Shown: one piece after another, positions 39,279 to 60,698 of the stretch | Numbering within the stretch: the first letter of the stretch is position 1 | Layout of the letters: each line of letters starts with the position of its first letter | Source of the DNA: a virus | Direction: 5' to 3' (one strand) | DNA: 64,000 nucleotides | IMG/VR virus record: IMGVR_UViG_3300010885_044958 | Span: 1-64,000 of that record | Position numbers and translations under genes: made by a program | Notes under the pieces: generated by a model | The model's input: only the letters and a program-made list of their open reading frames with translations | What the model was told of the DNA's origin: nothing | Database searches by the model: none

Positions 39279-39523
39279 ATTTTCTTAGATTTTAATTTCT
39301 CTTGTGCCCACGGCTCATTAACGTCTGACGAATGCACTGTGAATTGATAAGGCTCTTTATTTCTTTCATCTATTATATCTTGCATTTCATCTTCTACTTT
39401 AGACTTCAAATCACGATTTAAAAATGCTTGAAATTCTGGCGTATAAGTCGCACTTCCAGTCATACTAGTAGCTATTTTAACAAGATGTTTTGTATATTCG
39501 TCTCCTTCTTGTGTTATATTCAT
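39275..39523 (-). CDS. Hypothetical protein
   Basis: An 82 aa charged protein (MNITQEGDEYTKHLVKIATSM ... VEDEMQDIIDERNKEP). It overlaps by four bases with the genes on each side, so it belongs to a translationally coupled string from 40972 to 38844. No domain is recognised. Confidence 0.65.
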   Translation of the reverse strand: MNITQEGDEYTKHLVKIATSMTGSATYTPEFQAFLNRDLKSKVEDEMQDIIDERNKEPYQFTVHSSDVNEPWAQEKLKSKKI

Positions 39524-40374
39524 AAAAATCTTTGTTTAAAATCTTGGAAATTTAAAATGCGTTTGTATCCAACATCATATCTACGATTATGTAATGCATC
39601 CATCAAAAATGTGCAAATACCATTTTTATTAAGATCTACATAATTCTCCCATCTATCGTCAATAAACCAAGTAAGACCAGATGCCTTTGCAATTTCTACT
39701 TTAGATTCTCCTACACCAACTGTATAAACAGGAACACTGGGAAATCCATTCATTTGCAACCATTCTTTGGTCCATTCATTAGGTATTGATCGGCTGGTAA
39801 TATAGCAGTGGGGTTCAAATCCTAATTCTTTAGGTTCAATTTTCTTAGGTATTGTTAACCAAAATTCTTTATTATCTTTTAATAATTCAAATTTTGCGCC
39901 AATATCTTTATCAAAATTCCAAAATTCTGGAATATCTTGAGAATGATATCTAGTCCAATGTCCAAGCCAATCTGCAATTACTTCATCTATATCAAGACCT
40001 ATTTTGGGTTTCGGTAAAAATGTGTGTAGCCTATCATCTCCTTGCGGATAATATTTGTAGTAAGATATTATACCAAGACAATTCCATGCTGCATGTGCCA
40101 TGTGTAGAAGATTCGTATGATTTTTACATGTTCCCTCTTGACATTCTTTACAATTAGGATCAAAATCATAGTCTTCTCCTTTTTCAAATGCCGCAATATG
40201 CCTTTTTAAAGATGCAAGCATTTTAGACCATTCCATACCTTTAAGCCAGTTGAATGGCGCATATTTCTCAGCTCCTTTACTAAAAACTTTAACAACTTGT
40301 TCTATTGCATATGGTTCAAGTAAATCATACTTTATTTTTTCAGAATTAAATCGCAATGCCTTTTCTTCGCTCAT
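39520..40374 (-). CDS. dATP/dGTP pyrophosphohydrolase domain fused to a HAD deoxyribonucleotidase
   Basis: A 284 aa protein with two modules. Residues ~5-115 (RFNSEKIKYDLLEP ... GAEKYAPFNWLKG ... LKRHIAAFEKGEDYD ... NLLHMAHAAWNCLGII) match the phage dATP/dGTP diphosphohydrolase N-terminal family, which resembles MazG-type all-alpha NTP pyrophosphatases. Residues ~122-284 are a HAD phosphatase of the 5'(3')-deoxyribonucleotidase type: IGLDIDEV with Asp128 and Asp130, a CYITSRS motif II, and FIDDRWEN as the late acidic pair. The fusion could convert a dNTP to dNMP and then to the nucleoside. It lies next to a MazG-like protein and overlaps both neighbours by four bases. Confidence 0.75.
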   Translation of the reverse strand: MSEEKALRFNSEKIKYDLLEPYAIEQVVKVFSKGAEKYAPFNWLKGMEWSKMLASLKRHIAAFEKGEDYDFDPNCKECQEGTCKNHTNLLHMAHAAWNCLGIISYYKYYPQGDDRLHTFLPKPKIGLDIDEVIADWLGHWTRYHSQDIPEFWNFDKDIGAKFELLKDNKEFWLTIPKKIEPKELGFEPHCYITSRSIPNEWTKEWLQMNGFPSVPVYTVGVGESKVEIAKASGLTWFIDDRWENYVDLNKNGICTFLMDALHNRRYDVGYKRILNFQDFKQRFL

Positions 40375-40983: not shown

Positions 40984-41985
40984 TTAACTCATTTTCACTA
41001 ATTCTAATACACGATCTCTTATTTCTTGAGTTAATTCTGGGTTATCTTGCATCATTTGTATAAAAACTGGATATTCAAATTTCTCGTCTTTATACGTAAT
41101 AGTTTTGCCCCACTTTTTTAAAATTTCTAAATCGTTTCCAATTCTTATTATCTCGCCTATTTTATCTATGCCTATGCCATATAAAATATCAAATTCACAA
41201 TTTTTAAATGGCGGCGCAACTTTATTTTTAATAACTTTTACTTTAGTAAGATTTCCAAGTATTTCATCACCATTTTTAACTGAATTATCTGATGTAGTAC
41301 TACGTCTAACATCTAATCTAACAGATGCATAGAATTTCAAGGCATTGCCTCCAGGTGTCGTTTCTGGCGAGCCGAACATTACTCCAATTTTCTCGCGTAA
41401 TTGATTAATAAATATTAGTAATGTATTAGTCTTTTTAACAGTTCCTGCAAGTTTTCTACAAGCTTGCCCCATCATTCTTGCCTGCAATCCCATTTTTTGA
41501 GTGCCCATCTCATCTTCTAGTTCAGCTTTTGGAACTAGAGCTGCAACAGAATCTATTAAAACTACATCATAAATACCCGTACTTATTAATTTTTCAGCTA
41601 CTTCAAGACCCTGCTCACCAAATTCTGGCTGATTAATATCTAATCTAGATAAATCTACGCCTAATTTTGCAGCATATTCCATATCAAATGCGTGTTCTGC
41701 ATCTACAATAGCACATAATACATCTGGATCTTTTTGAGCTTCTGCAATTGTATGTATTGCAAGTGTTGTCTTTCCTGATGATTCTGGACCATATATTTCA
41801 ATAATTCTACCTCGTGGTAACCCACCTATACCTAATGCTATATCAAGCCCAAGAGAGCCTGTAGAAATTGATTCTATGTCCATATCACCTCTATCTGACA
41901 GAGACATTACTGTACCTTTACCAAAATCTTTATCCAAAGATGTCTTCACTGCAATACGTGCCTTTGTCTTTTCCTCTAAATTCAT
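40984..41985 (-). CDS. recA: RecA recombinase
   Basis: A 333 aa protein with the complete bacterial RecA core. GPESSGKT is the Walker A motif (residues 66-73). The [16 protein letters not shown] Walker B region, [25 protein letters not shown] (L2/DNA-binding region) and [14 protein letters not shown] follow. RecA coats ssDNA and drives strand exchange. It lacks the long acidic C-terminal tail of E. coli RecA (353 aa), as phage and some bacterial versions do. A -7 promoter element lies at 42002-42009. It heads the 42-38 kb operon and probably works with the SSB-like protein, the exonuclease at 45726 and the Sak4-like ATPase. Confidence 0.9.
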
Positions 41986-45725: not shown

Positions 45726-46901
45726 TTAATTATTTATTAAGTTTAATTGTATAATCCCGTTTTCTAACATTTCTCTGCATTCTGAAAAATCGTTTTTGCA
45801 AATATGCCACGCAATTTCGTCTAGCAACTGATTCCAACCCTTTTTAATTCTAAACTGATGATGTTTACCAAATGCGCCTTCTAGAAATTTTTCATTACCA
45901 TATCGTGCATTATATAAATCTCTTTCTGAATAAGAATATATGCAGGGTGTTTTATCAACTATGTCGATTGCAATATTAATTGGTGGTAATTGTTTATAGT
46001 CTTTTAGATAATAAAAATTTGCATCCTGCTCAATTAATTTTGAAATAAGGTATTGGTAAAAACTCAATTGCATATCATAATTGAACTTATATATATTGTT
46101 TTTGAATTCATGTGTTGAGAACGTTTTCTTAAAATCTACTATTTGATATGTTTTATTCTTGTGGTCAACTCTAAATATATCTAATGCACCTTTAATTGGG
46201 ATTTTTCTGATTTCTGGTTCACGAATTTCATGCCAAGCTATTGGGTCTTCAAATTCTACCTCATAATCATACTCAGCAAAAATTTCTAATTGAAAATGCA
46301 ATTCATTATCAGGAGATTCTACTAGATAATCACGAGTATGCTTGTTTGCCTTAAGGATTTCTATCAGTTCTATTGCTTGCATATTTAAACTAGACGAGAT
46401 TATCTTACGATGATTTGCCTCAGCTAAAATTGAGAAATACGCATTTCCACGTTCTATTATTTTATTTACTCTAGTATCATCTTTCCATCCAGATTGCCAT
46501 TTTTCAGTATTACAGCAAGATAATAAAATATCCCAGTTTTCTGCCAAATCAATTTTTAAAAATTCTGGCTCTTCTGGCAATACTTCATTTAATTCTTTTA
46601 AGGAATTGTTATATTCAATAATCTGATTATAGGTACATTCAATGATTTTGCACTCAGTCTCGCTAGGAATTTTTTCCATATTAGCTATATAGAATCTCTC
46701 TTCTAACTTATCTGGGCATGTTATCAATGTATCCAAAATTTCTCCAAGCAAAAACGCCGGGTTCTCATTTTCATCATCTTCAATATTTTCTACATATTTT
46801 CTGTACCACTTTTTGGGGGAAAAATTGCGCCATGCCTTTATAGAACTTTGACTTATACAAAACCCTCTACCACCACCATTCTTATAATCCGCTGTTTGCA
46901 T
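45726..46901 (-). CDS. PD-(D/E)XK exonuclease (Cas4/lambda-exo-like)
   Basis: A 391 aa protein with the layout of phage PD-(D/E)XK exonucleases. An N-terminal SQSSIKAW...SPKKWYRKY segment and FLLGEILDTLI (the GxxxD/H helix) lead to IKGALDIFRVDHKNKTYQIVDFKKT near residues 232-257, with the catalytic Asp, then DFK as the D-x-K pair, and FNYDMQLSFYQYLI as the QxxxY motif. Such enzymes resect DNA ends for annealing or strand invasion. Together with RecA and the SSB-like protein this gives a full recombination set. It overlaps the next upstream gene by 20 bases. Confidence 0.8.
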   Translation of the reverse strand: MQTADYKNGGGRGFCISQSSIKAWRNFSPKKWYRKYVENIEDDENENPAFLLGEILDTLITCPDKLEERFYIANMEKIPSETECKIIECTYNQIIEYNNSLKELNEVLPEEPEFLKIDLAENWDILLSCCNTEKWQSGWKDDTRVNKIIERGNAYFSILAEANHRKIISSSLNMQAIELIEILKANKHTRDYLVESPDNELHFQLEIFAEYDYEVEFEDPIAWHEIREPEIRKIPIKGALDIFRVDHKNKTYQIVDFKKTFSTHEFKNNIYKFNYDMQLSFYQYLISKLIEQDANFYYLKDYKQLPPINIAIDIVDKTPCIYSYSERDLYNARYGNEKFLEGAFGKHHQFRIKKGWNQLLDEIAWHICKNDFSECREMLENGIIQLNLINN

Positions 46902-47285: not shown

Positions 47286-47714
47286 TTATTTCATTTTTGA
47301 TCTATAGTAATGGGCACGTATATTATCGTTATATGAATCTTCTCTTAATATTGCATCTTCACAAAATAAGATTTTTTCTTCAGTATAATTTAATTGCATT
47401 TTTGAAGTGCAAAAAACTAAAATTTCTTTTTTAATATTTGCTCCATTTTTAATATCTTCATTGAGTGTAGCATTGCTGCCAGTGTAATCTAACCAATTAG
47501 ACTCTTTAACAACAATTTTATTTTTTTTGCGTCTATTGTTAGTGGCTTCTTGCTCTTTAAGAGAAATTTTAGTCTTTCTATGTGTATGTAATATCTTACG
47601 CCCCCAATATTTCTTATCATTGTCTAAATTAATTATTAAGTACACGAATCCCACAGAATTTTCTGGGCATTTTGCAATATCATCCACTATCTGACCTCTA
47701 TAAATCCAACTCAT
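47286..47714 (-). CDS. GIY-YIG (SegE-like) homing-type endonuclease
   Basis: A 142 aa protein starting MSWIYRGQIV. The ORF opens further upstream (to 47750), but a terminator and a consensus promoter occupy that stretch, so ATG 47714 is the start. The family pattern is complete: W-x-YRG, GFVYLIIN (GIY-like strand), KKYWGRKIL (YIG-like strand with Arg), SNWLDYTGSNATLNEDIKN, then ILVFCTSKMQLNYTEEKIL with the catalytic Glu, and YNDNI. SegE-type proteins are free-standing nicking or cleaving homing endonucleases of phages. Transcription would begin at or within a few bases of the ATG. Confidence 0.8.
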   Translation of the reverse strand: MSWIYRGQIVDDIAKCPENSVGFVYLIINLDNDKKYWGRKILHTHRKTKISLKEQEATNNRRKKNKIVVKESNWLDYTGSNATLNEDIKNGANIKKEILVFCTSKMQLNYTEEKILFCEDAILREDSYNDNIRAHYYRSKMK

Positions 47715-47719
47715 AGGTG

Positions 47720-47751
47720 CAAAGATATAAAAAAAGAAAGTCTTAAACAAA
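47720..47751 (-). promoter_or_regulatory. Perfect Bacteroidota-type promoter embedded in a terminator
   Basis: On the minus strand: TTTG (47751-47748) in the hairpin loop, a 20-base spacer that covers the 3' arm and U-tract of the terminator, and TATCTTTG (47727-47720). ATG 47714 begins six bases after the -7 box, so the mRNA may be leaderless. Confidence 0.75.
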
Positions 47752-48051: not shown

Positions 48052-49596
48052 TTAATCTCTAAACAATGCCTTTCCGTCAAATTGGAATTTATACGTGAGG
48101 TCATCTTTAAGACACCATTCAGATACTTTATCTCCATTTTCAATATCCTTAGCAAATCTATTTTTACGCTCTGTATAATACGCGATCAAATAATCTGAAA
48201 GAAACATTGCGTCTTTACTACTCTTATAATGCGTTTTATAAAAATTTAACACATCAATAAAACTAATTGTGTCTCCACATATAATCTTTTTTATGTTGTT
48301 TTCAGCAAACGCAATTACAGCACGATTCATAAACAACCAATTAACTGCTCTCTGACTATTCAAAGTTGCATCATGCAGTCTGGATTCGCAAGTACCGCTT
48401 GGAGAAAATAACATGTTGATAAAATTCCAATCATAATATCTACAACTTCTTTGCCATTTCTCCCTAATTGGATGCCTCATTTGTGTTCTATTTACTTCTT
48501 GATCCGCATGATGTCCCTCACTTAAAAACTCAAATATTCTATTATAAACCACATCTACAAATTGATCATACCCTTCTTTAGACTGATCTTTAAGTGAGTA
48601 AATAGACATTTTTTTGAGCTTTTGACAATAGTTTTTGCGTTTGATTCCACGATGATCTAGCTTATAATATGGAAACATCTTGAATATATCATCTTGAATT
48701 TGATAACATAACATATACAACGCAACCAGATAAACTCTTTCTTTAGGTAGATTTCCAAGATGAATGTGATAAGAACACCTTATATCTATTTGATTCCTCT
48801 TTTGCAATTCCTTACAAGTGTTTATTATATTCTGAATACCTTTTGCGCCTTCCATTGGAACAGTTACGTACTCAGGTCCACCTTCAAGACTACCATCTCT
48901 ACAAATTACTAGTCCAAGACGATTTTGTAAATAATCAGGCATACTGCCAACAGAAGCTTCAAACTCACACCCAAAACTTGTATTGCCTAAAAACTTTGCA
49001 TACTTTTTTGCATCATCCCCTATTTTCAGTCCATAATTCTTATACAATTCTTTCTTTTGTTCAAATTCCTTTGCATTATCTTCTATGTTATATCCTTTGT
49101 TAGTATAAGATTTGCTTGGACGAATTTTTTCCATTTGATTCTTATCGCCCTTACCAACTTCTCCTGTTTTATAAAATACATTTGCAGAAACGTCTTCAAA
49201 GAAATGCATTTTCAAAATTTCTGGATTCAGTGCAGTATAATTAGAATTTTTCCAGACAACTGGGCAATTATTGTATTCATTTTTAGTGAACCTACCTGTT
49301 ATAACATTGCCAGAAAAATCTACATCAACAATACCATTAATCATTTTCTTAGTATCCTTAATAAACCATTCTCCAGTTTCCCAATCTTTTTCTATTTTAC
49401 CAGAAGTAGTTCTATACCATTTTTGTTCAGATTCAATATAGAATATATCTGTAAAAACACTGTAATACTTGCCTTTAACAAATTTTGTATTCTTTCTATA
49501 TTCTGTTTTTCCATCGTGCGTCTCTACAACAGGAAAACCCAATGAAGGGTTCTCCGTGTAGGACTGTATTGTTGTTATTAATTTTTTTTGTATCAT
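48052..49596 (-). CDS. Amidoligase_2-family enzyme
   Basis: A 514 aa protein. Residues ~205-460 match the Amidoligase_2 family (COOH-NH2 ligase fold, glutamine-synthetase-like). FGCEFEASVG carries Glu211 and Glu213 at the first strand, RDGSLEGGPEYVT carries Asp234 and Glu242, IRCSYHIHLGNL supplies the HxH element, and CESRLHDATLNSQRAVNW the E-x-R strand. These enzymes are predicted to use ATP to join a carboxylate to an amine. Residues 1-200 form an extra N-terminal region with no known domain. It overlaps the class II amidotransferase gene by four bases, so the two are translationally coupled. Substrate unknown. Confidence 0.8.
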   Translation of the reverse strand: MIQKKLITTIQSYTENPSLGFPVVETHDGKTEYRKNTKFVKGKYYSVFTDIFYIESEQKWYRTTSGKIEKDWETGEWFIKDTKKMINGIVDVDFSGNVITGRFTKNEYNNCPVVWKNSNYTALNPEILKMHFFEDVSANVFYKTGEVGKGDKNQMEKIRPSKSYTNKGYNIEDNAKEFEQKKELYKNYGLKIGDDAKKYAKFLGNTSFGCEFEASVGSMPDYLQNRLGLVICRDGSLEGGPEYVTVPMEGAKGIQNIINTCKELQKRNQIDIRCSYHIHLGNLPKERVYLVALYMLCYQIQDDIFKMFPYYKLDHRGIKRKNYCQKLKKMSIYSLKDQSKEGYDQFVDVVYNRIFEFLSEGHHADQEVNRTQMRHPIREKWQRSCRYYDWNFINMLFSPSGTCESRLHDATLNSQRAVNWLFMNRAVIAFAENNIKKIICGDTISFIDVLNFYKTHYKSSKDAMFLSDYLIAYYTERKNRFAKDIENGDKVSEWCLKDDLTYKFQFDGKALFRD

Positions 49597-51890
49597 ACAA
49601 CTGCTGTGTTTAATGTGCGATTGATTAATCCTGCAACCTCTTCGTCATCATTTTCTGTGGCGATATCTGCAATTTTATGCTTTATGTTATCTAAAATTTT
49701 GTACATTGCATCAGTTACTTCTTGAGCATACTTATTTGAAAGCATCCCAGACAATTCATCTACAGAATTATTTAATTCACCAAGAACTACAATCATTTCA
49801 CCAATTTTATCTCTGGCTATTGCCTCATCTATTTCTTCGTGATTTGGTTCATCTAGTTCTGGTTCATCCACTATTTCTGCATTTTCATAAACAATGATAT
49901 CTAATGGTTCTTTCTCCTCTGTTTGCAAAAGTTTTTCTTCTATTGTTGTTGTACTCGAACCTGGAGTATCTATTCCAAGCATTGATTTAATAGATTTTTT
50001 ATTCCAGTATTTATAAGGAATATCTGCAATTCTAAATCGCTTTTCCTCGTATCTTTCTAGAACATTCATTGCATCTTCTATTTCAGTTCTGATACTAGTT
50101 TGTCTTTTTACAGCATCTTCAATAGTCTTAGCAACTTCCCTATCCAGTTCTTCATTATCTGGGTCTAAAGTAGTATTTGGATCTTTAACCATACAATCAA
50201 AAACAAAATACTTTATTGCGTAGTACTGTTGCTCTTTTATTGCATTCATTGCTTCTGCTGCTGTAGTAAACACCTTATCATAAACAGAATCTCCGCCTGT
50301 TTGCAAAGTAAATTCTTCGTAAAACATTTTAGATTCATGCTTCTTATCGGATGTTTTTATGTCTTCCAAATAACCATTCTTTCCTATTGAATAATTTCTT
50401 GAAGAAAACAACGGTGTAAAGCTCTTAGACTTATATCTGTTATCGTCTAAATAAAATCCAAAACGCACATGCGCAGTCTGTCCTGTAGATTCTCCATGTA
50501 TATTTGTTACTGGATACATTGAATATTTACTAATCTGATGAGCAAAATTATGACTCATTAGATCTGGCAAAATCTTTTTATTTTTAATATCATCTTGAAG
50601 ATTATTCCATGCTTGCCCCCCTTTTAACATCACACCTCTATAAAAATAGTAAGCCTGTACATTTTGACCTTCTATATCATACCTTACACCCTTCTTATCT
50701 AACCAGAGTTTACCCATGCACAAAGCCGCGCTAGCATTCGGCATACGAAATCGCCCTTGCCAGAAATAGACCCTCCCACTTCCATCTAATGATTGATAAG
50801 GTCTTGTTTCATTCCAAATCTTTGAGCTTGAAGGTGTTACTCCCGGAATATCAAAAGGAATCATACCCTGTCCTTGTTGACCTCTTGTTATCAAATTTCT
50901 ATTTTGGCAACCTCTATTGTAATTAGGATAACACCCATCTCCATCCCAATTATAAGTATTATTATGCCCTTGATAAGTACTTACATGTACTACTTTTTCT
51001 TTACAATTAGGCCCATATAACCTCTTTACTTCGTGTTTAAATGTAGTAAATTTGCCATTTTTAATTTGCAAAACTACATTATAAGGAAAAACACAAATTT
51101 TATCATCTTTACTTGCTATTGCTCTTAAATATTCTGGAAGAGATGCAAAATACATACCTTCAGTAGTTTTCATATACCACATTGGTCTTTCTTCCCAGAC
51201 TGTATCCCCTTTATCTTCTGATTCATCTGGATGAGCATAATAACTACCGTGATAAACAAATAAACTATTTGGATCTCCTGCAAAATTCCATGCAAGTGCG
51301 GCATCTCCTTCATACTCATCCAATACTTTAAGACCTGCTTTATCTATACACATAGCAAGTCCTTCAGAATCTACTTGGTAACTACTATAAGGTATATTTG
51401 CCTCATTAGTAAGTTTTTGAATGTTACGGATGACTCCATTGTGAACGAGCCGTAAACATTTCTTAGGATCTTCATTTTCAATTGTAAATGGATGATTTGT
51501 ATCTTTTCCAGGAATTCCACCACCAGCAGCTTTACGATTATGAATCATTATTACACCACCATTATAAGTGATATTTTGCACATTATCTAAGTCTGAAATA
51601 AAGTTTTTCCAAGCCTTAGTATCTTTTTTAGTTGCGTTTGGTCCTTTCCAATCATCCCATCCTTTATATACTTCTCCGTTAATAAGCATTCCACAGCCAT
51701 CTCCACCACGATCTTGCAAATATAATCCTAAAATTTTCATTTTTTGGTAGGCAAGCATTTTTTGTGCTTCAGTAATTGCAGCTATCGGGGAAAAACAAGC
51801 CACTCCACATGGCAGTATCCCCGGAGTTCGTTTAAAGCAATTTATCAGTATAATCTGAATTATGATATAATAAAATATTATTGTTGACAT
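49593..51890 (-). CDS. Class II glutamine amidotransferase domain protein
   Basis: A 765 aa ORF. CGVACFSPI followed by KILGLYLQDRGGDGCG, VIMIHNRKAAGGG, NHPFTIENED and LVHNGVIRN reproduces the Ntn-type class II glutaminase domain (catalytic N-terminal Cys, RGxDxxG, HxRxAxxG, HPF, HNGxIxN). These domains release ammonia from glutamine. The catalytic Cys is residue 28 here (codon 51809-51807), with no ATG directly before it. Either a 27-residue propeptide is removed, as in GltB or Bacillus PurF, or the start is unusual. The region ~310-500 is unassigned and the C-terminus (~570-765) is acidic and coiled-coil-like. It would feed ammonia to the neighbouring ligases. Confidence 0.8.
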   Translation of the reverse strand: MSTIIFYYIIIQIILINCFKRTPGILPCGVACFSPIAAITEAQKMLAYQKMKILGLYLQDRGGDGCGMLINGEVYKGWDDWKGPNATKKDTKAWKNFISDLDNVQNITYNGGVIMIHNRKAAGGGIPGKDTNHPFTIENEDPKKCLRLVHNGVIRNIQKLTNEANIPYSSYQVDSEGLAMCIDKAGLKVLDEYEGDAALAWNFAGDPNSLFVYHGSYYAHPDESEDKGDTVWEERPMWYMKTTEGMYFASLPEYLRAIASKDDKICVFPYNVVLQIKNGKFTTFKHEVKRLYGPNCKEKVVHVSTYQGHNNTYNWDGDGCYPNYNRGCQNRNLITRGQQGQGMIPFDIPGVTPSSSKIWNETRPYQSLDGSGRVYFWQGRFRMPNASAALCMGKLWLDKKGVRYDIEGQNVQAYYFYRGVMLKGGQAWNNLQDDIKNKKILPDLMSHNFAHQISKYSMYPVTNIHGESTGQTAHVRFGFYLDDNRYKSKSFTPLFSSRNYSIGKNGYLEDIKTSDKKHESKMFYEEFTLQTGGDSVYDKVFTTAAEAMNAIKEQQYYAIKYFVFDCMVKDPNTTLDPDNEELDREVAKTIEDAVKRQTSIRTEIEDAMNVLERYEEKRFRIADIPYKYWNKKSIKSMLGIDTPGSSTTTIEEKLLQTEEKEPLDIIVYENAEIVDEPELDEPNHEEIDEAIARDKIGEMIVVLGELNNSVDELSGMLSNKYAQEVTDAMYKILDNIKHKIADIATENDDEEVAGLINRTLNTAVV

Positions 51891-51911
51891 GTGTTTGTTT
51901 GTTGTTTTGTT

Positions 51912-51945
51912 TAAAAATCGGGCTAGAATTATTAGTTCTAGCCCG
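51912..51945 (-). terminator. Rho-independent terminator after the ATP-grasp gene
   Basis: CGGGCTAGAA (51919-51928) and TTCTAGCCCG (51936-51945) form a perfect 10-bp stem with a 7-base loop. On the minus strand it is followed by ATTTTTAAAC. It splits the island into two transcription units. Confidence 0.85.
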
Positions 51946-51956
51946 TTGTTAATAAA

Positions 51957-52865
51957 TTATTGTTTTACTTGTTCTTTATAGATACCGAGTTGCCTAGCTT
52001 TTTGTCGAGCTATTATTGGTAACTGATCTATATACCTCTGTGCTGTTATAGATCCGTAGCTTGGAGCACTACAAGATTCTATTACGATAAAATCTGGTGC
52101 CTCTCTTTGCTTACCTTTACCGTTTAATTCAGACTGTACTCGCAAATCTATTGCACCTACATCAAGACCTACAGATTTGATTGCTTTTACACATTCTTCT
52201 ACTATAGAATTCCAATTAGATGGTTTTTCAAATGTCTCATTATTTTCCAAAATCCAAACGCAATTATCATCATGCTTTTGAAATTTTTCATTTTCAGGCG
52301 TTCCATTTTTCAACATCTTACGACAAGTATAAAAACATGTACCGTTTACAGCATCAATATGTAACCTATATTCCCTTGAATAAGACATATAGTGTTCTAT
52401 AATATAATTACTCATATCATGTCCGGCTATAAATCTGTTTAATTCTTCTGATGTTTTTATAAATGAATTACCTTCGCCTCTAGACCCAAACAAACTTTTT
52501 ACAATAAGTGGGAATTTTAAATCCTCTATTTTTGCCGTTTTATCTGAACCAGAAACATGAAATAATGAATCTTTATATGTATACCAAGGTGCGGTTTTTA
52601 TTCCTGTCTGTGCAAAACATTTTTTCATCAATAATTTGCTAGAACTATTTTGCACACCTTTTATTTCATTTATTTCAATCATCTTTCCACCACGACTTAC
52701 AGCTTCTTCTGCGATTGTGGTACTACCTAACCTAACCACACATTTAAATGGCATACGAGGCAATTCTGTACGTAATACAGCATGTGAGGGATGACGTGAG
52801 AATACATGAAACTTATGACTTGTAGTTATTACCTTAGGCTGCAACTTCTTCTTTAGAGTATTCAT
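51957..52865 (-). CDS. ATP-grasp (RimK-like) carboxylate-amine ligase
   Basis: A 302 aa protein with the ATP-grasp signature. FPLIVKSLFGSRGEGNSFI holds the nucleotide-binding Lys and Gly-rich loop (residues ~118-136). YIIEHYMSYSREYRLHI is the strand with the acidic adenine-side residues. DVGAIDLRV (~235-243) and FIVIESCSAPSYGS (~257-270) provide the Asp and the Glu/polar metal ligands, with Ser-Cys where Asn is usual. ATP-grasp ligases form an acyl-phosphate and attach an amine, often an amino acid. The N-terminal pre-ATP-grasp domain is present. It overlaps the upstream gene by 32 bases. Confidence 0.8.
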   Translation of the reverse strand: MNTLKKKLQPKVITTSHKFHVFSRHPSHAVLRTELPRMPFKCVVRLGSTTIAEEAVSRGGKMIEINEIKGVQNSSSKLLMKKCFAQTGIKTAPWYTYKDSLFHVSGSDKTAKIEDLKFPLIVKSLFGSRGEGNSFIKTSEELNRFIAGHDMSNYIIEHYMSYSREYRLHIDAVNGTCFYTCRKMLKNGTPENEKFQKHDDNCVWILENNETFEKPSNWNSIVEECVKAIKSVGLDVGAIDLRVQSELNGKGKQREAPDFIVIESCSAPSYGSITAQRYIDQLPIIARQKARQLGIYKEQVKQ

Positions 52866-53397
52866 ATATTTGTTTTAGATGTAAATAATTTAATCCGTCT
52901 GTTAATACTTCTAGTCTTGGTGTACCATTTTGTGTTCCATTATCATCATAATGTGATATTGCCGAACTAAAATATTTATTTTCTTTATCGTAGTCTTTTC
53001 TATTATCATAGTACCAAACCCTAGCTTCAATTTGTGGGCATTGCAAACTATAAATTTCTAAATTTTCATTCAATTCTACTAAAATACAAATACATTCTAA
53101 CAGAGTAAGACTTGGATAATAGTAATTAGCTAACAAAAACAAATCATGTGTTGATCTATTTTTATGCCCACGACATTGCATTATATTTTTTTCTTTTTCT
53201 TCGGCAGTTTCATCTACCCAAATACAATTATGTTCATATTCTTTATTCCATTTATTCAAAAACCAATTTAAAAATGATTTTGCATCCGGCAATTCATTAT
53301 AATCTAGTTCTTCATTCATTTTAAATCTGCGTTCTTGCAAATAATTTTTTTCGTTAGATGCAATTATTTCTAATATTTCTTGATCTTTTAGTTCCAT
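52834..53397 (-). CDS. Hypothetical protein inside the amidoligase island
   Basis: A 187 aa acidic protein (MELKDQEILEIIASNEKNYL). It contains a helical stretch (DLFLLANYYYPSLTLLECICILVELNEN) and an aromatic segment (ARVWYYDNRKDYDKENKYFSSAI), and no enzyme motif that I recognise. Its position between the ATP-grasp ligase (32-base overlap) and the class I amidotransferase makes it a candidate carrier, adaptor or substrate protein for the pathway; this is inference. Confidence 0.65.
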   Translation of the reverse strand: MELKDQEILEIIASNEKNYLQERRFKMNEELDYNELPDAKSFLNWFLNKWNKEYEHNCIWVDETAEEKEKNIMQCRGHKNRSTHDLFLLANYYYPSLTLLECICILVELNENLEIYSLQCPQIEARVWYYDNRKDYDKENKYFSSAISHYDDNGTQNGTPRLEVLTDGLNYLHLKQIYEYSKEEVAA

Positions 53398-53400
53398 ATA

Positions 53401-54033
53401 TTATAGTTTATCTTCCATTAATTTTTTTAACAAATCTTGGCAATACTTTACTGGTTCTGATTCTACTTGCATAGCCTCTGGGTGCCATTGCGTTCCTAAA
53501 AACTGAGTCTTAGAGAAAAATAGAATTTCTGGTTCAATTGGCACATTCATTTGCTTACCTTCACCATCATCATGATGATTTGATAAATTATCTGCTGCAC
53601 CTATGATTCGATATTCATCTTCTGGCAAATTAAACGGATAACACATTTGGTGATGCATTGAGTTCACAGAAAATACTTTACCATCTTCTGTTTTAATTGT
53701 ATGCCTCCCTGGATGAGAAATATCTTGTATTAATTTTCCACCAGAAACTGCGCAACCATACTGAATTCCTTTGCATGTACCCCACAACTTTTTTCCAAGA
53801 CCTATCGCAGTTCTAATATCAGCAAGTTCTTCATCATGTTCCATTCTAGTAAATCCCCAACTAGCAGAATGCCTCTTTTCTTCGCCATAAATTCTTGTGT
53901 CGATATCGCTACCTCCATTTACAAAGACCAAATCAGCTTCTTCTACAGAATGTACTATTTCTCTATTTGGAACCCAGTTAGAATAACCAGAACCTCTTTT
54001 ACCTGCGTGATATACTTTTATCTTTTTTTGCAT
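53401..54033 (-). CDS. Class I glutamine amidotransferase / gamma-glutamyl hydrolase-like (C26)
   Basis: A 210 aa protein with the class I glutaminase triad: GTCKGIQ with nucleophile Cys87, and QWHPEAM with His184 and Glu186. VFVNGGSDIDTRIYGE near the N-terminus is the oxyanion-side loop. It aligns better with peptidase C26 (gamma-glutamyl hydrolases such as PuuD) than with biosynthetic GATases, because it keeps the SMHHQM segment seen in that group. It could release a gamma-glutamyl group or supply ammonia. It lies within the amidoligase island, five bases after the COOH-NH2 ligase gene. Confidence 0.8.
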   Translation of the reverse strand: MQKKIKVYHAGKRGSGYSNWVPNREIVHSVEEADLVFVNGGSDIDTRIYGEEKRHSASWGFTRMEHDEELADIRTAIGLGKKLWGTCKGIQYGCAVSGGKLIQDISHPGRHTIKTEDGKVFSVNSMHHQMCYPFNLPEDEYRIIGAADNLSNHHDDGEGKQMNVPIEPEILFFSKTQFLGTQWHPEAMQVESEPVKYCQDLLKKLMEDKL

Positions 54034-54038
54034 AATTT

Positions 54039-54863
54039 TTATTTTGGCATTTTAATTTTAAATTTTTCTATCCAATTCTTTGCAGATTCCAAGTCATTAT
54101 TATTTATTATTGCTTGAATATCATCTCCAAAGTTTTCTATTTCATATATGCGTCCTGCATTTACAAATTTTATTGCTTCTTCTGTTTGTTTAAAACACCA
54201 TTCTATTAGAGTCTTGGAGGATGCAAAATAGCCTGACAATACGCGATATTCTGCACCCCAAGGCTGTTGCCTCCAGTTACCAGCACAACCATATCCAGAT
54301 GTTCTCCTTTCATTTTCAGGCTCTAGAAACAGGCTAGGAATGCCTACAAATACATCCATAGCTTTCATTAATTCTATGTTTGTTTCTTTATTTGGAGATT
54401 CATAGCCAATATGCAAATGTGTCCCATTAACACGAAGACTATCACCATTTGGTACAGGATGTATTTCATCCATTGTCCAACAATTTAAGCTACTTTCGCA
54501 ACCGAAAGTATTTGCTGTTTCTGATTGTAATTGATCTTCATCTAATCTTGCACAGGCTGCAATTTCTATTTGTAAATTTTCTGGTAAAATACTATCTATA
54601 TATCTAAGAGCTTTCTGTACATTTAGATAAAATTGCCCGGCAGTTTTTGCAGGTTCAAGACCGAATTCTGCGCTGACACAATCTAAACTAGTAGCAAAGA
54701 ATTTACTACTCTCATCAAATTTGTGCGGATTTTTCTTTGTGCCCTTTATAATTCCTTCAGCAGTAACAACCTTATCTGAGATCTTATCTTTTAAAAAAAC
54801 CTCAATGTCTGAGCCTACTAACCAGTCAACAACCTTCTGTTTTTTTGCTTTTGCTATTGTCAT
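54039..54863 (-). CDS. COOH-NH2 ligase (phiKZ-type, PF14395-like)
   Basis: A 274 aa protein that matches the phage COOH-NH2 ligase family of Iyer and colleagues throughout. LVGSDIEVFL carries the first acidic strand (Glu21). GTKKNPHKF, DCVSAEFGLEP, TFGCESSLNCW, LRVNGTHLHIGY (HxH), ERRTSGYGCAGNWR and GAEYRVLSGYF are all in the family order. It belongs to the glutamine-synthetase-like ligase fold, with predicted ATP-dependent amide bond formation. It is the second ligase of this fold in the island besides the amidoligase at 48052. It overlaps the upstream gene by four bases. Confidence 0.8.
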   Translation of the reverse strand: MTIAKAKKQKVVDWLVGSDIEVFLKDKISDKVVTAEGIIKGTKKNPHKFDESSKFFATSLDCVSAEFGLEPAKTAGQFYLNVQKALRYIDSILPENLQIEIAACARLDEDQLQSETANTFGCESSLNCWTMDEIHPVPNGDSLRVNGTHLHIGYESPNKETNIELMKAMDVFVGIPSLFLEPENERRTSGYGCAGNWRQQPWGAEYRVLSGYFASSKTLIEWCFKQTEEAIKFVNAGRIYEIENFGDDIQAIINNNDLESAKNWIEKFKIKMPK

Positions 54864-56032
54864 TTTGCATTTTTTAAAAAATTATACAACCCTTCATAAT
54901 CTTTATTTGTTATAAATGTTTTGCATTTTGGTATATCATTAATTCTATCTGGTAGATATTCAAATGATTCCCACATCTTATGCTTTGTTCTTATGTTGTT
55001 TACTATTACTTTTGGATCTGCAAAACAATTTAAAAGTCCTTTTGTTTGATAACCCATATGTACCAAACCTCTTTCTGTTAGATAATTCGGACCTAAATGT
55101 GCCATCATTAATGCTTCCCAATTAGATACTTTATCTTCTAAAGCATCTTTTATTTGCATTGCTAAAGCTGGAATATACCAGTGATTATTATGGTGCAAAT
55201 ATCTGAGTAACATCAAATGCAAATGACAATGCCATTCGTCTGCGTGATTTTTTACTTTAATTTCGACAAATGTTGATTTGCCTCCTGGAAAAATAGTGTA
55301 ATTGCTTGAATTTAAAACAAAATCTCTATCTTTTTCTGCAGGTGTTAATAATTTCTCGTAACATTTTGGAATTGCGCATTCACCTTCTAAAATATACTTA
55401 AATTCTATTTGGCAATTCTCTAAAAACTGCAACCACTTATGCACATCATAAATAGAATAGCCATAATAATTTAAATAGTAAGTAGGTAAATAATAAACAA
55501 AATCCATTTTTGTCTTGATATAATCACAACAATCTGCTTTAAAGCCAATTTGACCTCTACAAGCTTCACTTGCTAAATCTTCTTTAATTTGTCCAGTTTT
55601 AAAATCTATTGTGCATTTAGCTGTATAAACATACAATGTAATTGCCGATAAATTATTTTTTAGAATTCGTATATTCTTATTACAATCTATCTGAGAATAA
55701 TTTCCAGTAGAAGGTTTTCTAAATAGTTCTTCTGTGTCTAAAATATGTTTAAATGCTTCTTTTTCATATGCTGCTGCAATTTCTTCATATTTTTTAAAAT
55801 CTTTTTCTGCAATTTCTTCTAGATCTGCTTGTTGAAAAATATATCTTTTTGTATTTCCTGCACTAAAATAATTTACATAAAGTTGCCAAGCATCAGGTCT
55901 TGTATAGCCTTTGCTTGCAGTTTCTGAAGAAATGACTCCATACACACTATGTTTTTGTAAATTTTGCATTTCATTATTCAAACTGGTATACTTGTGGGGA
56001 TTCTTTATTAATACTCTGCTTCCAATTTGCAT
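54860..56032 (-). CDS. Hypothetical protein inside the amidoligase island
   Basis: A 390 aa protein (MQIGSRVLIKNPHKYTSLNNEM). The N-terminal ~75 residues have a KOW/SH3-like strand pattern (GSRVLIKNPHKY ... VYGVISSETAS). The middle is Tyr/Cys-rich, and residues ~270-290 hold DEWHCHLHLMLLRYLHHNNHWYIP, a His cluster that could bind metal. No family is recognised. It is coupled by four-base overlap to the COOH-NH2 ligase and overlaps the GGCT-like gene by 25 bases, so it is likely a pathway component. Confidence 0.65.
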   Translation of the reverse strand: MQIGSRVLIKNPHKYTSLNNEMQNLQKHSVYGVISSETASKGYTRPDAWQLYVNYFSAGNTKRYIFQQADLEEIAEKDFKKYEEIAAAYEKEAFKHILDTEELFRKPSTGNYSQIDCNKNIRILKNNLSAITLYVYTAKCTIDFKTGQIKEDLASEACRGQIGFKADCCDYIKTKMDFVYYLPTYYLNYYGYSIYDVHKWLQFLENCQIEFKYILEGECAIPKCYEKLLTPAEKDRDFVLNSSNYTIFPGGKSTFVEIKVKNHADEWHCHLHLMLLRYLHHNNHWYIPALAMQIKDALEDKVSNWEALMMAHLGPNYLTERGLVHMGYQTKGLLNCFADPKVIVNNIRTKHKMWESFEYLPDRINDIPKCKTFITNKDYEGLYNFLKNAK

Positions 56033-56457
56033 TTTGTGTCCAGTTTATGTGATTTTCTAATAAATTTTCTTTTACGATAATCGCCTGATTCAATTAGTTG
56101 TTCTTTAGCCCCAACAAAATCTGGTTGCCAAAATATAAATGCATTTCCAAATTCAGTTTCTATTAATTTTGCTTGGCCTCCACAAATATATTTTAAGAGA
56201 TTTTGCAAAACTGCATTTTGAGTAATTTTATATACTTCACAATGAATTGCAGAACTTCCCTTACCTAGTATACATGTATACCCTAAATTATACATTGTAA
56301 ATATAGGTTCTGTTAATATATTTCCTAGATATTCCGATTTATACTCAAGTAAAATTTTATTTTTAACTGATCCTTTTAATAAAGATCCCGAAACCAATAT
56401 TGTGATTTCGGGAGTAGTTTTATCTATCTTTAAATTTTTATTTAAATTTGTCTCCAT
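56008..56457 (-). CDS. Gamma-glutamylcyclotransferase-like (GGCT/AIG2 fold) protein
   Basis: A 149 aa protein. ITILVSGSLLKGSVKN (residues ~18-33) corresponds to the substrate-binding YGSLxxG loop of the GGCT/AIG2/BtrG family. SEYLGNILTEPIFTMYNLGYTCIL and AIHCEVYKI (~41-78) follow the usual strand order (LGxxxT, FxMxxxG, GExY). The Glu that normally acts as general acid/base in the LDxxEG segment is not obvious here (LLKYICGGQ), so activity is doubtful or altered. Family members release 5-oxoproline from gamma-glutamyl amines, as BtrG does to remove a protecting group. It overlaps the HNH gene end by 20 bases. Confidence 0.6.
   Translation of the reverse strand: METNLNKNLKIDKTTPEITILVSGSLLKGSVKNKILLEYKSEYLGNILTEPIFTMYNLGYTCILGKGSSAIHCEVYKITQNAVLQNLLKYICGGQAKLIETEFGNAFIFWQPDFVGAKEQLIESGDYRKRKFIRKSHKLDTKCKLEAEY
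56387..56412 (-). other. Strong hairpin inside the start of the GGCT-like gene
   Basis: CCCGAAA (56387-56393) and TTTCGGG (56406-56412) form a perfect 7-bp stem with a 12-base loop at codons ~16-24 of the gene. On the minus strand it is followed by ATCTTTATT. It may weaken or attenuate expression between the HNH gene and the island. Confidence 0.45.
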
Positions 56458-57166
56458 TTATATATTGTTTTATTAAATTTATAATTAATTCTTCTGGCCA
56501 ATCAAGCTTTAAACTATTCCACCACCAGCAAACTATTCTACAATTATCTTGAGTATATCCTTTGCTATTATCAATTCTATCTATTGATGGAAGTAACGGA
56601 TTTGATTTGTATGCTTCTTTAGATGGAGATATTATTAAATCAAATCCTGTAGCTTCACATTTTAGTAAGGAAATTTGTGTAAGAAACCATTCTTTTGTTA
56701 AATTAAATTCAAGATTTCTTTTTTTAGCTGAATTTTTAGTAGAGCAAAATAGTTTATTTGCAAATCCGGTAAATGTTAAAAAATGCTCTTTTCTAGATCT
56801 TCTTTCGTGCATTTTTTCTGGATTGTTATGATAGTATTCTTTTGATTTATTTCGATGTGTTTCCATTACATCAGGCCTCTGACGGTATATTTGCATATAC
56901 TTATCTTCGCATTCAATGCATTTTGATCTATAGCCTATCTTAACTTTTGGATTTTTATAAAAACAATCTGTTGTTTTTGTTTCTTTACATAAATCACAAA
57001 CTTTATATCCGGTTTCAATTAATTTCATAGCTCTTCTGTACTTTCCAACAGCAGCATTTCTACACTTCTTACACTGGTTTATATAACCATCTTTAATACA
57101 TTTTGAACGAAAAAAGTGTGAGATATCTTTTTCTTCTTTACATACATGGCATATCTTTTTTTCCAT
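56438..57166 (-). CDS. HNH homing-type endonuclease with double zinc ribbon
   Basis: A 242 aa protein. Two tandem zinc ribbons come first: CHVCKEEKDISHFF...CKKCRN, and CDLCKETKTTDCFY...CIECED (residues ~5-75). A basic linker and a C-terminal HNH-type motif follow (LPSIDRIDNSKGYTQDN, then CRIVCWWWNSLKLDW, ~190-220), the DRIDNxKGYTxDN form common in phage homing endonucleases. It is a free-standing mobile gene placed at the upstream border of the amidoligase island. The leader contains a small GGGC/GCCC hairpin (57178-57197) and a candidate -7 box at 57230. Confidence 0.85.
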   Translation of the reverse strand: MEKKICHVCKEEKDISHFFRSKCIKDGYINQCKKCRNAAVGKYRRAMKLIETGYKVCDLCKETKTTDCFYKNPKVKIGYRSKCIECEDKYMQIYRQRPDVMETHRNKSKEYYHNNPEKMHERRSRKEHFLTFTGFANKLFCSTKNSAKKRNLEFNLTKEWFLTQISLLKCEATGFDLIISPSKEAYKSNPLLPSIDRIDNSKGYTQDNCRIVCWWWNSLKLDWPEELIINLIKQYINGDKFK

Positions 57167-57399: not shown

Positions 57400-57618
57400 T
57401 TAATCTTTGGCAATATTACCATCTACTAATTCACTAAAACTAGGAGTTCCAATTTGTATTCTATTTTGCTTGTACCACAAGTTGTCGATATCCAAATGCT
57501 TTATTCTGAAGTTTTGGCGTGAAATAATTTTTAACTGCTCGGCAATTATTATATTTTTATCTTCTATTAATTGTTTCAGATCATTTATTGTTTGTTCTAA
57601 TATTTCTATATCTGTCAT
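57400..57618 (-). CDS. Small coiled-coil protein
   Basis: A 72 aa protein. Residues 1-45 are a heptad-rich coiled coil (ILEQTINDLKQLIEDKNIIIAEQ), and the C-terminus reads GTPSFSELVDGNIAKD. It overlaps the primase gene end by four bases (ATGA). It could be a small oligomeric partner of the primase; there is no direct evidence. Confidence 0.65.
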   Translation of the reverse strand: MTDIEILEQTINDLKQLIEDKNIIIAEQLKIISRQNFRIKHLDIDNLWYKQNRIQIGTPSFSELVDGNIAKD

Positions 57619-58643
57619 AAAAATCCTTTATTATGTAATTGATTTTCTAATTCTTCTCTACCAAAATGTGACGTAATATCATAGCTATCTTCCAAACTAT
57701 ATTTTTCATAGTCTGATTTTGCTGTATTAAAATATTCTAATCCATAAGTTTTAGTTAATTCAGTACAAACACCAACAGCATGTGGGTCAGATCCAAGGCA
57801 AACTATAATTCTCTTATATTTTGATTGCAAATCTTTTATAATTTTTTCTGGCAAAGCCGCAACTGATTCGTTTTGAAGCCAAATTTGATCTGAAAAGTAG
57901 CGCATACAAGTAAGCCAGTCTTTCTTAGATTTTTGTACAAACAATCTATCATCTTTTTGTGGTAATGTATCCAAATTTCCTGGGCAATTCAATGGTACAC
58001 TACTTAAGAATTTCATTTTCTTATCTTGTGGGCAATAAATTTTTACACGTTTTTGCCATTTACCATTTATTTCACAATTAACTACATATGCGTATCTATG
58101 AAAATTATTTGGATTAAATATTTGTTGATTGTTAATATATAATTCTTTTACATAAAATACATCTCCTGCATTATTTAATTCATCTATTGTTATTTCACCA
58201 CGCCTAAAAAACAATGAGTTTTTCTTAGACCATTGTTCTGCAGAAAATTGTATCACAGTCTGCTTAGAGATTTCTTTATCTAAACTTTCTAATTCTTTAT
58301 AAAAACTTGCTGGTATTTTAGATTGCCTTCCAATAATTCCAAAATCTTCTGCAACAATGCGCAAACAATTTGCAAAATCACATCCGCATTTCTTTTTTAC
58401 TACTTGCCAACAATTTAGAATTTCAGAAGTCCTAAAGTCTTTATATAGAAGAGTTCCATTAGTATGTATAAATACTCCTGCACTTGCTAATTCATCTTTT
58501 CTAAACGGACTATTAAATGCCTTACCTATTTTAAATCGACCTAAGTAGAACAACATTATCTGAGTTTGATCTATCTTAGATAGGATATACTCCGGAGTCA
58601 ATCTAATCGGACTTCGTACTTTTGAAAAATCTAATTCTTGCAT
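57615..58643 (-). CDS. Divergent TOPRIM-type DNA primase
   Basis: A 342 aa protein. Residues ~40-115 (FNSPFRKDELASAGVFIHTNGTLLYKDF ... CGCDFANCLRIVAEDFGI) follow the order of a CHC2-like primase zinc region, but without the usual cysteine/histidine ligands. Residues ~235-325 resemble a TOPRIM domain: VQKSKKDWLTCMRYF, QNESVAALPEKII, and KRIIVCLGSDPHAVG in place of the usual DxDxAG. Primases make RNA primers for replication. The position next to the SSB-like protein, helicase and ATPase fits. Loss of some canonical residues makes activity uncertain. Confidence 0.7.
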   Translation of the reverse strand: MQELDFSKVRSPIRLTPEYILSKIDQTQIMLFYLGRFKIGKAFNSPFRKDELASAGVFIHTNGTLLYKDFRTSEILNCWQVVKKKCGCDFANCLRIVAEDFGIIGRQSKIPASFYKELESLDKEISKQTVIQFSAEQWSKKNSLFFRRGEITIDELNNAGDVFYVKELYINNQQIFNPNNFHRYAYVVNCEINGKWQKRVKIYCPQDKKMKFLSSVPLNCPGNLDTLPQKDDRLFVQKSKKDWLTCMRYFSDQIWLQNESVAALPEKIIKDLQSKYKRIIVCLGSDPHAVGVCTELTKTYGLEYFNTAKSDYEKYSLEDSYDITSHFGREELENQLHNKGFL

Positions 58644-59942: not shown

Positions 59943-60698
59943 CTACACAGCTTCTTTTTTAGCTTTTACTTTAATTGGTTCTTCTGATTTGCCTTCACAG
60001 TCTCCTGAATAGTAGCAAGCAATTGCTTTATTTACTAATTCAAGATCATTATCAATGTATTCATCTGGGAATAAATCAATTGGTGATTTCGCTGTTGATG
60101 ACATATCTCTAGTTTTAAACTTATAGACGATATTGTTATCTCCATCTTGCATTTTACAAGCTAAAAGTACAATTTCAAATTGTGCCTCAACAGAAGCTAA
60201 TTTTTCTTGTATCATTTTGCCAGAACTCATTGCTCTCTTTACTTTTTCCTCGATCACACCATCCCCGACACTATCGGCATGAAAAAGAAAATACACATTT
60301 AGGTCTTCTCTTAAAGTATTTGCAACTTCTGCTAAATGTAAAAAATCATGGGCAATGTCACTGTACTTATTGTAACCAGGTTCTTCCCTGCGCCGATCCA
60401 GCTCCTTTATTGAAAAAAATGTCGAATCGTCCAGGCATATAGTCCTAACATGTGGCATTTTATCACTAATATGTCTCAACCACTGACTCACAGCTTTGGC
60501 TGACGAGCTTATTATTAAATTACCTGTTGGATTTGATTCACGATTCCAGACAGTATAATTTATACGACTTTTTGGGAATGGAAGACCTTTCCCTAAACTT
60601 GAGAAAATCATAGTCGTCTTAGGATCTAGATTTCTCATACTTGTGCTTTTACCAACACCACTTTCTCCAATAATTAATATTCCTTTAGATGTATTCAT
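59943..60698 (-). CDS. Sak4-like phage recombination/replication ATPase
   Basis: A 251 aa RecA-fold NTPase. GESGVGKS (residues 11-18) is the Walker A motif, and TICLDDSTFF (~86-95) the Walker B strand with two Asp. VYFLFHADSVGDG provides a sensor-like strand, and a basic tail follows. The size and the start ILIIGESGVGKSTSMRNLDPKTTMI match Sak4-type single-strand annealing ATPases found beside phage SSBs. It lies in one operon with the SSB-like gene and has a consensus promoter immediately upstream. Confidence 0.75.
   Translation of the reverse strand: MNTSKGILIIGESGVGKSTSMRNLDPKTTMIFSSLGKGLPFPKSRINYTVWNRESNPTGNLIISSSAKAVSQWLRHISDKMPHVRTICLDDSTFFSIKELDRRREEPGYNKYSDIAHDFLHLAEVANTLREDLNVYFLFHADSVGDGVIEEKVKRAMSSGKMIQEKLASVEAQFEIVLLACKMQDGDNNIVYKFKTRDMSSTAKSPIDLFPDEYIDNDLELVNKAIACYYSGDCEGKSEEPIKVKAKKEAV

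Follow-up and report, generated by a model that had tools for sequence, protein, structure and literature searches.

Podoviruses related to RIO-1 carry a seven-gene 'peptidoglycan modification cassette', for which a block to superinfection has been hypothesised, and this cassette is conserved in phiEco32, 7-11, PA11, tf, MR299-2, LUZ24, PaP3, and CW02 (PMC5498523). Its genes are also listed for UFV-P2 (PMC3890496), and a paper on an OM43 phage repeats the cell-wall idea for phiEco32 (PMC10580990). In Phage-ZRK32, the families were read as nitrogen-metabolism genes (PMC10945688). Among the openly licensed papers searched, we found no experimental test of the cassette product. Predictions made by Iyer et al. 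in 2009 on these enzyme families reportedly underlie the peptidoglycan idea. The enzymes have been under discussion since then, and phages of many groups, crAss-like ones among them, carry the cassette.

The cassette in a crAss-like phage genome

The window, by which we mean the whole stretch of DNA analysed here, is the first 64 kb of an IMG/VR record of 134,236 bases. This record encodes terminase, portal, and major capsid proteins of crAss type (phrog_6681, 6.6e-68; phrog_6547, 2.2e-63; phrog_11589, 2.1e-20), the three proteins by which we judged membership of Crassvirales. The best matches of the terminase are 23–25% identical, mostly in crAss-like and other Bacteroidota phages, including Flavobacterium phages. 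As judged from its genes, the source is a deep-branching crAss-like phage, because the structural genes match crAss families and the terminase does so at only 23–25% identity.

Eight minus-strand ORFs, which a first-pass annotation had read as an island of amide-bond chemistry, are all present at the positions given there and form one tight block in which no overlap or gap exceeds 66 bases (Table 1). The block sits amid replication genes, between the primase and the exonuclease. Two nuclease genes, of GIY-YIG (SegE-type) and HNH/endonuclease-VII-like families, lie at 47286-47750 and 56438-57166, one on each side of it. Profile searches bore out five of the six enzyme families named in the first-pass annotation. 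The sixth, the GGCT-like protein, gives only matches below the cut-off in Pfam (AH_C, 5.3e-04; GGACT, 2.4e-03), but scores 6.7e-11 with a phage GGCT profile built without the window protein. The COOH-NH2 ligase had been called phiKZ-type; Pfam describes this family as phiEco32-like type 2. Searches of solved structures with both glutamine-synthetase-like (GS-like) ligases gave no relative, and an Rfam search of the region gave no RNA element. A terminator-like hairpin divides the block into a stretch from the GGCT-like gene to the ATP-grasp gene and a glutaminase–amidoligase pair, which may be two transcription units.

Table 1. Features of the amidoligase block and neighbouring replication genes (positions in the window)
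Feature	Positions	Strand	Support
Exonuclease	45726-46901		
Amidoligase_2 (glutamine-synthetase-like ligase), 514 aa	48052..49596	-	Pfam PF12224 6.8e-08, above cut-off
Class II glutamine amidotransferase (Ntn glutaminase), 765 aa, with ~480-aa C-terminal extension	49593..51890	-	GATase_6 3.3e-09, above cut-off; phrog_4736 1.5e-10
Hydrophobic N-terminal leader of the glutaminase, 27 codons, up to catalytic Cys28 (TGT 51807-51809)	51810..51890	-	homolog counts in the text
Intrinsic-terminator-like hairpin between ATP-grasp and glutaminase genes	51919..51945	-	perfect stem, then ATTTTTAAAC; -16.4 kcal/mol, z -8.84
RimK-like ATP-grasp ligase, 302 aa	51957..52865	-	phrog_2599 4.5e-25; TIGR00768 4.6e-10
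Orphan, 187 aa, 28-member phage family	52834..53397	-	iterated HMM family; winged-helix-like predicted model
Class I glutaminase / gamma-glutamyl hydrolase (Peptidase_C26), 210 aa	53401..54033	-	PF07722 4.8e-12; phrog_7218 4.6e-21
COOH-NH2 ligase, phiEco32-type, 274 aa	54039..54863	-	PF14395 4.8e-09; phrog_3815 1.1e-50
Orphan, 390 aa	54860..56032	-	homologs in L089, L090, L091
GGCT-like protein, 149 aa, without catalytic glutamate	56008..56457	-	GGCT profile 6.7e-11
Primase	57615-58643		
Sak4-like annealing protein	59943-60698		

The podovirus cassette of RIO-1-, LUZ24-, and phiEco32-like phages shares with the window an amidoligase, a COOH-NH2 ligase, a class II glutaminase, a RimK-like ATP-grasp ligase, and a GGCT protein near replication genes, and the clustering of the first four of these families marks the window locus as a member. 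The window differs in having a leader on its glutaminase, a much longer glutaminase and amidoligase, and a C26 gene within the block; its GGCT-like protein lacks the catalytic Glu, its ATP-grasp enzyme carries N265C, and its two accessory proteins have no match in the named phages. The set had been described as unusually complete, a view that the survey contradicts: of the 116 viral contigs fetched, 54 encode all six families, which span 7.7 kb at the median. LUZ24 has five of the families, with an uncharacterised protein taking the place of C26. Such survey counts, here and for the core genes below, depend on which gene served as the query (47 of 73 contigs for the amidoligase, 7 of 43 for the COOH-NH2 ligase), and contig ends lower them. 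The expectation that the genes are conserved together in other phages was upheld: about 95% of 127 loci have a core made up of both GS-like ligases and the class II glutaminase. Clustering is conserved in more than 100 loci, and the accessory genes vary widely between phages. Annotated carriers include LUZ24, RIO-1, phi14:2, cr108_1, Leptolyngbya phage Lbo-JY46, and CVT22, among others. Bacterial genomes scanned with the amidoligase profile yielded no confirmed relative, a result of little weight because the patterns were narrow.

Among crAss-like phages, Cellulophaga phage phi14:2 (g037-g041) and cr108_1 place the block in the same primase–exonuclease slot as the window and keep the same core order of COOH-NH2 ligase, glutaminase, and amidoligase, at about 23–39% identity to the window depending on the protein. 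The phi14:2 glutaminase has the same kind of leader but the phage has no C26 gene, and cr108_1 lacks both a nearby GGCT gene and a leader. The closest relatives are Lbo-JY46 and the IMG/VR contigs L016 and L089-L091, with amidoligases 40–47% and COOH-NH2 ligases 40–47% identical to those of the window; Lbo-JY46 and L016 also have a crAss-like terminase. Unlike in the window, the glutaminases of Lbo-JY46 and L089 begin with MCG, and L016 has an extra winged-helix-like domain on its ATP-grasp protein and an amidoligase gene in two pieces with an endonuclease-family gene between them. Almost certainly, the locus is the form that a widespread phage amidoligase cassette takes in crAss-like phages.

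Active sites and accessory proteins

We compared the catalytic residues of each enzyme with those of 84–114 homologs per family. Motifs had been claimed for every enzyme, which holds fully for four of them, with one deviation for the ATP-grasp ligase and not at all for the GGCT-like protein. The amidoligase keeps all positions invariant in 84 homologs (e.g., G209, E211, E213, D234, E242, H277, H279, R386, E404, and R406), and the COOH-NH2 ligase all those invariant in 114. The class II glutaminase retains C28, which is conserved in 94 of 94 homologs, along with R119, the oxyanion pair N151-G152, and D174 of the glutamine site, and the C26 protein retains its Cys-His-Glu triad as C87, H184, and E186. 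The first-pass annotation rightly linked these amidoligase-type enzymes to those covered by Iyer et al. 2009, and in most of them the catalytic residues are intact.

In the ATP-grasp ligase, the metal-binding Asn found in 85 of 96 homologs is C265; 10 of the 95 other homologs, among them the closest relative L016, share this Cys. E263 and all other near-invariant positions are kept, and the Glu-x-Asn motif is not intact. On this alignment, C265 weakens the claim of a canonical metal site but not the fold assignment. In the GGCT-like protein, SGSL replaces the YG(S/T)L loop with loss of the tyrosine, and the aligned stretch contains no Glu, so neither the YGSL-type loop nor the catalytic glutamate of an active gamma-glutamyl cyclotransferase is present. 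This Glu is present in 68 of 86 homologs and missing from 18; some of the Glu-less loci have a second copy nearby, and the only copy in the window is the defective one. The GGCT-like protein here is probably non-catalytic, to judge from these substitutions. C26 and GGCT enzymes normally remove rather than supply gamma-glutamyl groups, which, with the missing Glu, counts against reading them as suppliers of such groups. Recurrent active-site losses in GGCT-like and ATP-grasp members suggest that the published enzyme-by-enzyme story partly fails for some carriers.

The two proteins that had been left as unknown match no Pfam, PHROG, or NCBIfam family, and tblastn of both against the named phages gives no match even at E 1. 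By iterated HMM search, the 187-aa orphan groups with small proteins that number about 28 in all and share conserved Cys and Arg-Ser-x-x-Asp positions; some loci have several copies. In L016, one homolog lies upstream of the ATP-grasp gene and another is fused to the ATP-grasp protein as its N-terminal domain. The predicted model (pLDDT 71.6) has the order of elements of a winged helix and its best Foldseek matches are winged helices at E >= 0.14, which is suggestive of a winged-helix-like fold. Homologs of the 390-aa orphan occupy the same slot between the GGCT and COOH-NH2 ligase genes in L089 (1.8e-19), L091 (5e-07), and L090 (1.8e-04); its model is poor (pLDDT 44.9) and fold matches to it are meaningless. 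Pattern searches of viral contigs that started from one protein alone, the COOH-NH2 ligase or the 390-aa orphan, returned nothing.

Two other accessory families were seen in the survey. A family of about 260 aa adjoins the C26 gene in about 30 loci (e.g., L016 4511-5212, L002 9466-11385); the members tried matched no curated Pfam family and had no significant hit in PHROG, and comparison of the family with the 390-aa protein gave hhalign probabilities of 27–43%. Podovirus-type cassettes encode a protein of about 200 aa (phrog_4877) between the COOH-NH2 ligase and the amidoligase (L004 7776-8345, which is LUZ24 gp17; L111 10745-11350).

A hydrophobic leader on the glutaminase

The glutaminase of the window begins with MSTIIFYYIIIQIILINCFKRTPGILP, followed directly by the catalytic Cys-Gly. 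The Cys is residue 28 as translated, and the solved mature PurF chain 1gph begins at the matching position. Class II glutaminases need the Cys to be free at the N-terminus, and both PurF and glutamate synthase are known to have pro-segments that can be removed. Among the 118 homologs whose N-terminus could be read, 34, about a quarter, have comparable leaders of 22–48 residues, defined by a 15-residue hydropathy of at least 2.0. These leaders end in a pattern close to KPKxNxL(S/N) immediately before the Cys-Gly; most leaderless homologs begin Met-Cys-Gly. Not one of the roughly 590 N-termini from the five remaining cassette families reaches this hydropathy. No start codon adjoins the Cys in any of the 34 leader genes, so the Cys could become N-terminal only through cleavage. 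The net charge summed over the 34 leaders is +63 after the hydrophobic stretch and +4 before it, the pattern expected if the catalytic part stays cytoplasmic. We infer that the glutaminase is a membrane-targeted pro-enzyme, for which hydropathy predicts insertion and cleavage of the leader.

Two simpler readings were rejected. A gene-calling or frameshift artefact does not fit the deposited phi14:2 annotation, which has the leader, nor the lack of start codons before the Cys, nor the leaderless sister genes, which have a clean ATG-TGT/TGC start and upstream frames without a hidden leader. A lipoprotein signal does not fit the charged residues between the hydrophobic stretch and the Cys or the lipobox positions.

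In a quick tree of the catalytic domain, leaders are confined to the branch holding crAss-like phages, and their presence or absence changes at least eight times on well-supported branches. No podovirus-type copy has the leader, most crAss-like copies lack it too, and it comes and goes among close relatives. This patchy distribution argues that membrane targeting is not essential to the cassette. The cassette itself is already described, and what is new here is the leader; we found no earlier report of it in the openly licensed papers searched, and it may be noted elsewhere. The variant gives a concrete handle on where the enzymes act and predicts a checkable cleavage event.

Possible functions of the cassette

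Our best overall explanation joins the cassette, a membrane pro-enzyme, and an envelope target, and we give it a probability of roughly 0.4. The envelope target, modified as a precursor at the inner membrane, is tentatively favoured at a little under even odds because the ammonia source has a membrane leader in the window and 33 homologs, and because a cell-wall hypothesis already stands for the podoviruses. The glutaminase would be made as a membrane-targeted pro-enzyme, and removal of the leader would free Cys28. The freed enzyme would hydrolyse glutamine and pass the ammonia to one of the two glutamine-synthetase-like ligases, which would use it to amidate a carboxylate. Amino-acid or gamma-glutamyl groups would come from the ATP-grasp enzyme and the other of the two ligases, with the C26 hydrolase trimming gamma-glutamyl groups. 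The most likely substrate would be a precursor of the envelope on the inner face of the cytoplasmic membrane, and as an outcome infected cells might resist a second phage, or the envelope might stay usable during infection. Since the GGCT-like protein is probably non-catalytic and the ATP-grasp metal site is altered, at least one of the named steps may be missing. A bolder proposal from the same sequences is that the pro-enzyme stays tethered to the membrane, that the cassette forms an inner-membrane ligase complex amidating or peptidylating a lipid-linked envelope precursor, and that phages repeatedly toggle between soluble and membrane forms through gain or loss of the leader before the nucleophile; we consider it doubtful.

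The leading rival, itself unlikely, is protein tagging, in which a virion or host protein, such as one of the ribosome or RNA polymerase, would receive amino acids or short gamma-linked peptides from the ligases, much as RimK modifies ribosomal protein S6. The ATP-grasp enzyme is nearest to RimK/S6-type ligases (phrog_2599, TIGR00768), the winged-helix-like domain predicted on the ATP-grasp protein of L016 could recognise a protein or nucleic-acid target, and the title of Iyer et al. 2009 speaks of peptide modifications of proteins. However, simple glutamylation needs neither a glutaminase nor a C26 hydrolase, and the cassette adjoins replication genes rather than virion genes.

Ranking next, and a less likely reading, is a soluble amide or gamma-glutamyl metabolite, such as a modified polyamine or nucleotide, serving counter-defence or host control. 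The logic of the Puu putrescine pathway is gamma-glutamylation followed by hydrolysis, to which the C26 hydrolase and GS-like ligases could be a parallel by analogy. Accessory genes that differ widely from phage to phage would suit such a product, but the survey revealed no recurrent enzyme for a dedicated precursor, and there is no experimental hint of one.

An auxiliary metabolic role in ammonia use or amino-acid synthesis by the host, of the kind proposed for Phage-ZRK32, is improbable. That phage has the families and promotes growth with ammonia or nitrate, although the part of the report available does not tie the growth promotion to these genes (PMC10945688). The cassette is found in L006, but the set includes no standard assimilation enzyme, and a cluster of ligases would be an odd route for nitrogen assimilation. 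Least likely of all is a cassette that builds a peptide-like group on phage DNA bases, which would suit the crAss-like location amid primase, exonuclease, and recombination genes, but the 134-kb record has no thymidylate-synthase-family (PF00303) or PurZ-like (PF00709) match, and DNA of the cassette carrier phage tf is cut by RsaI, HpaI, EcoRV, SmaI, and HaeIII (PMC3517423).

Elsewhere in the window, a protein with a dATP/dGTP diphosphohydrolase N-terminal domain (7.9e-26) is encoded near a RecA gene (1.5e-118), at 39520-40374 and 40984-41985. A Z-DNA reading prompted by the diphosphohydrolase-like gene was dropped, as no PurZ is present in the 134-kb record. Beyond the window, the record encodes an RNA ligase with a PHA02142 OB-fold domain (L012 3474-4568, record 67474-68568). 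A sugar locus (L013 7645-18705, record 91645-102705) contains a GDP-mannose 4,6-dehydratase (7.7e-140), a second GDP-sugar epimerase/dehydratase resembling GDP-fucose synthase, glycosyltransferases, and a PhoH-like gene.
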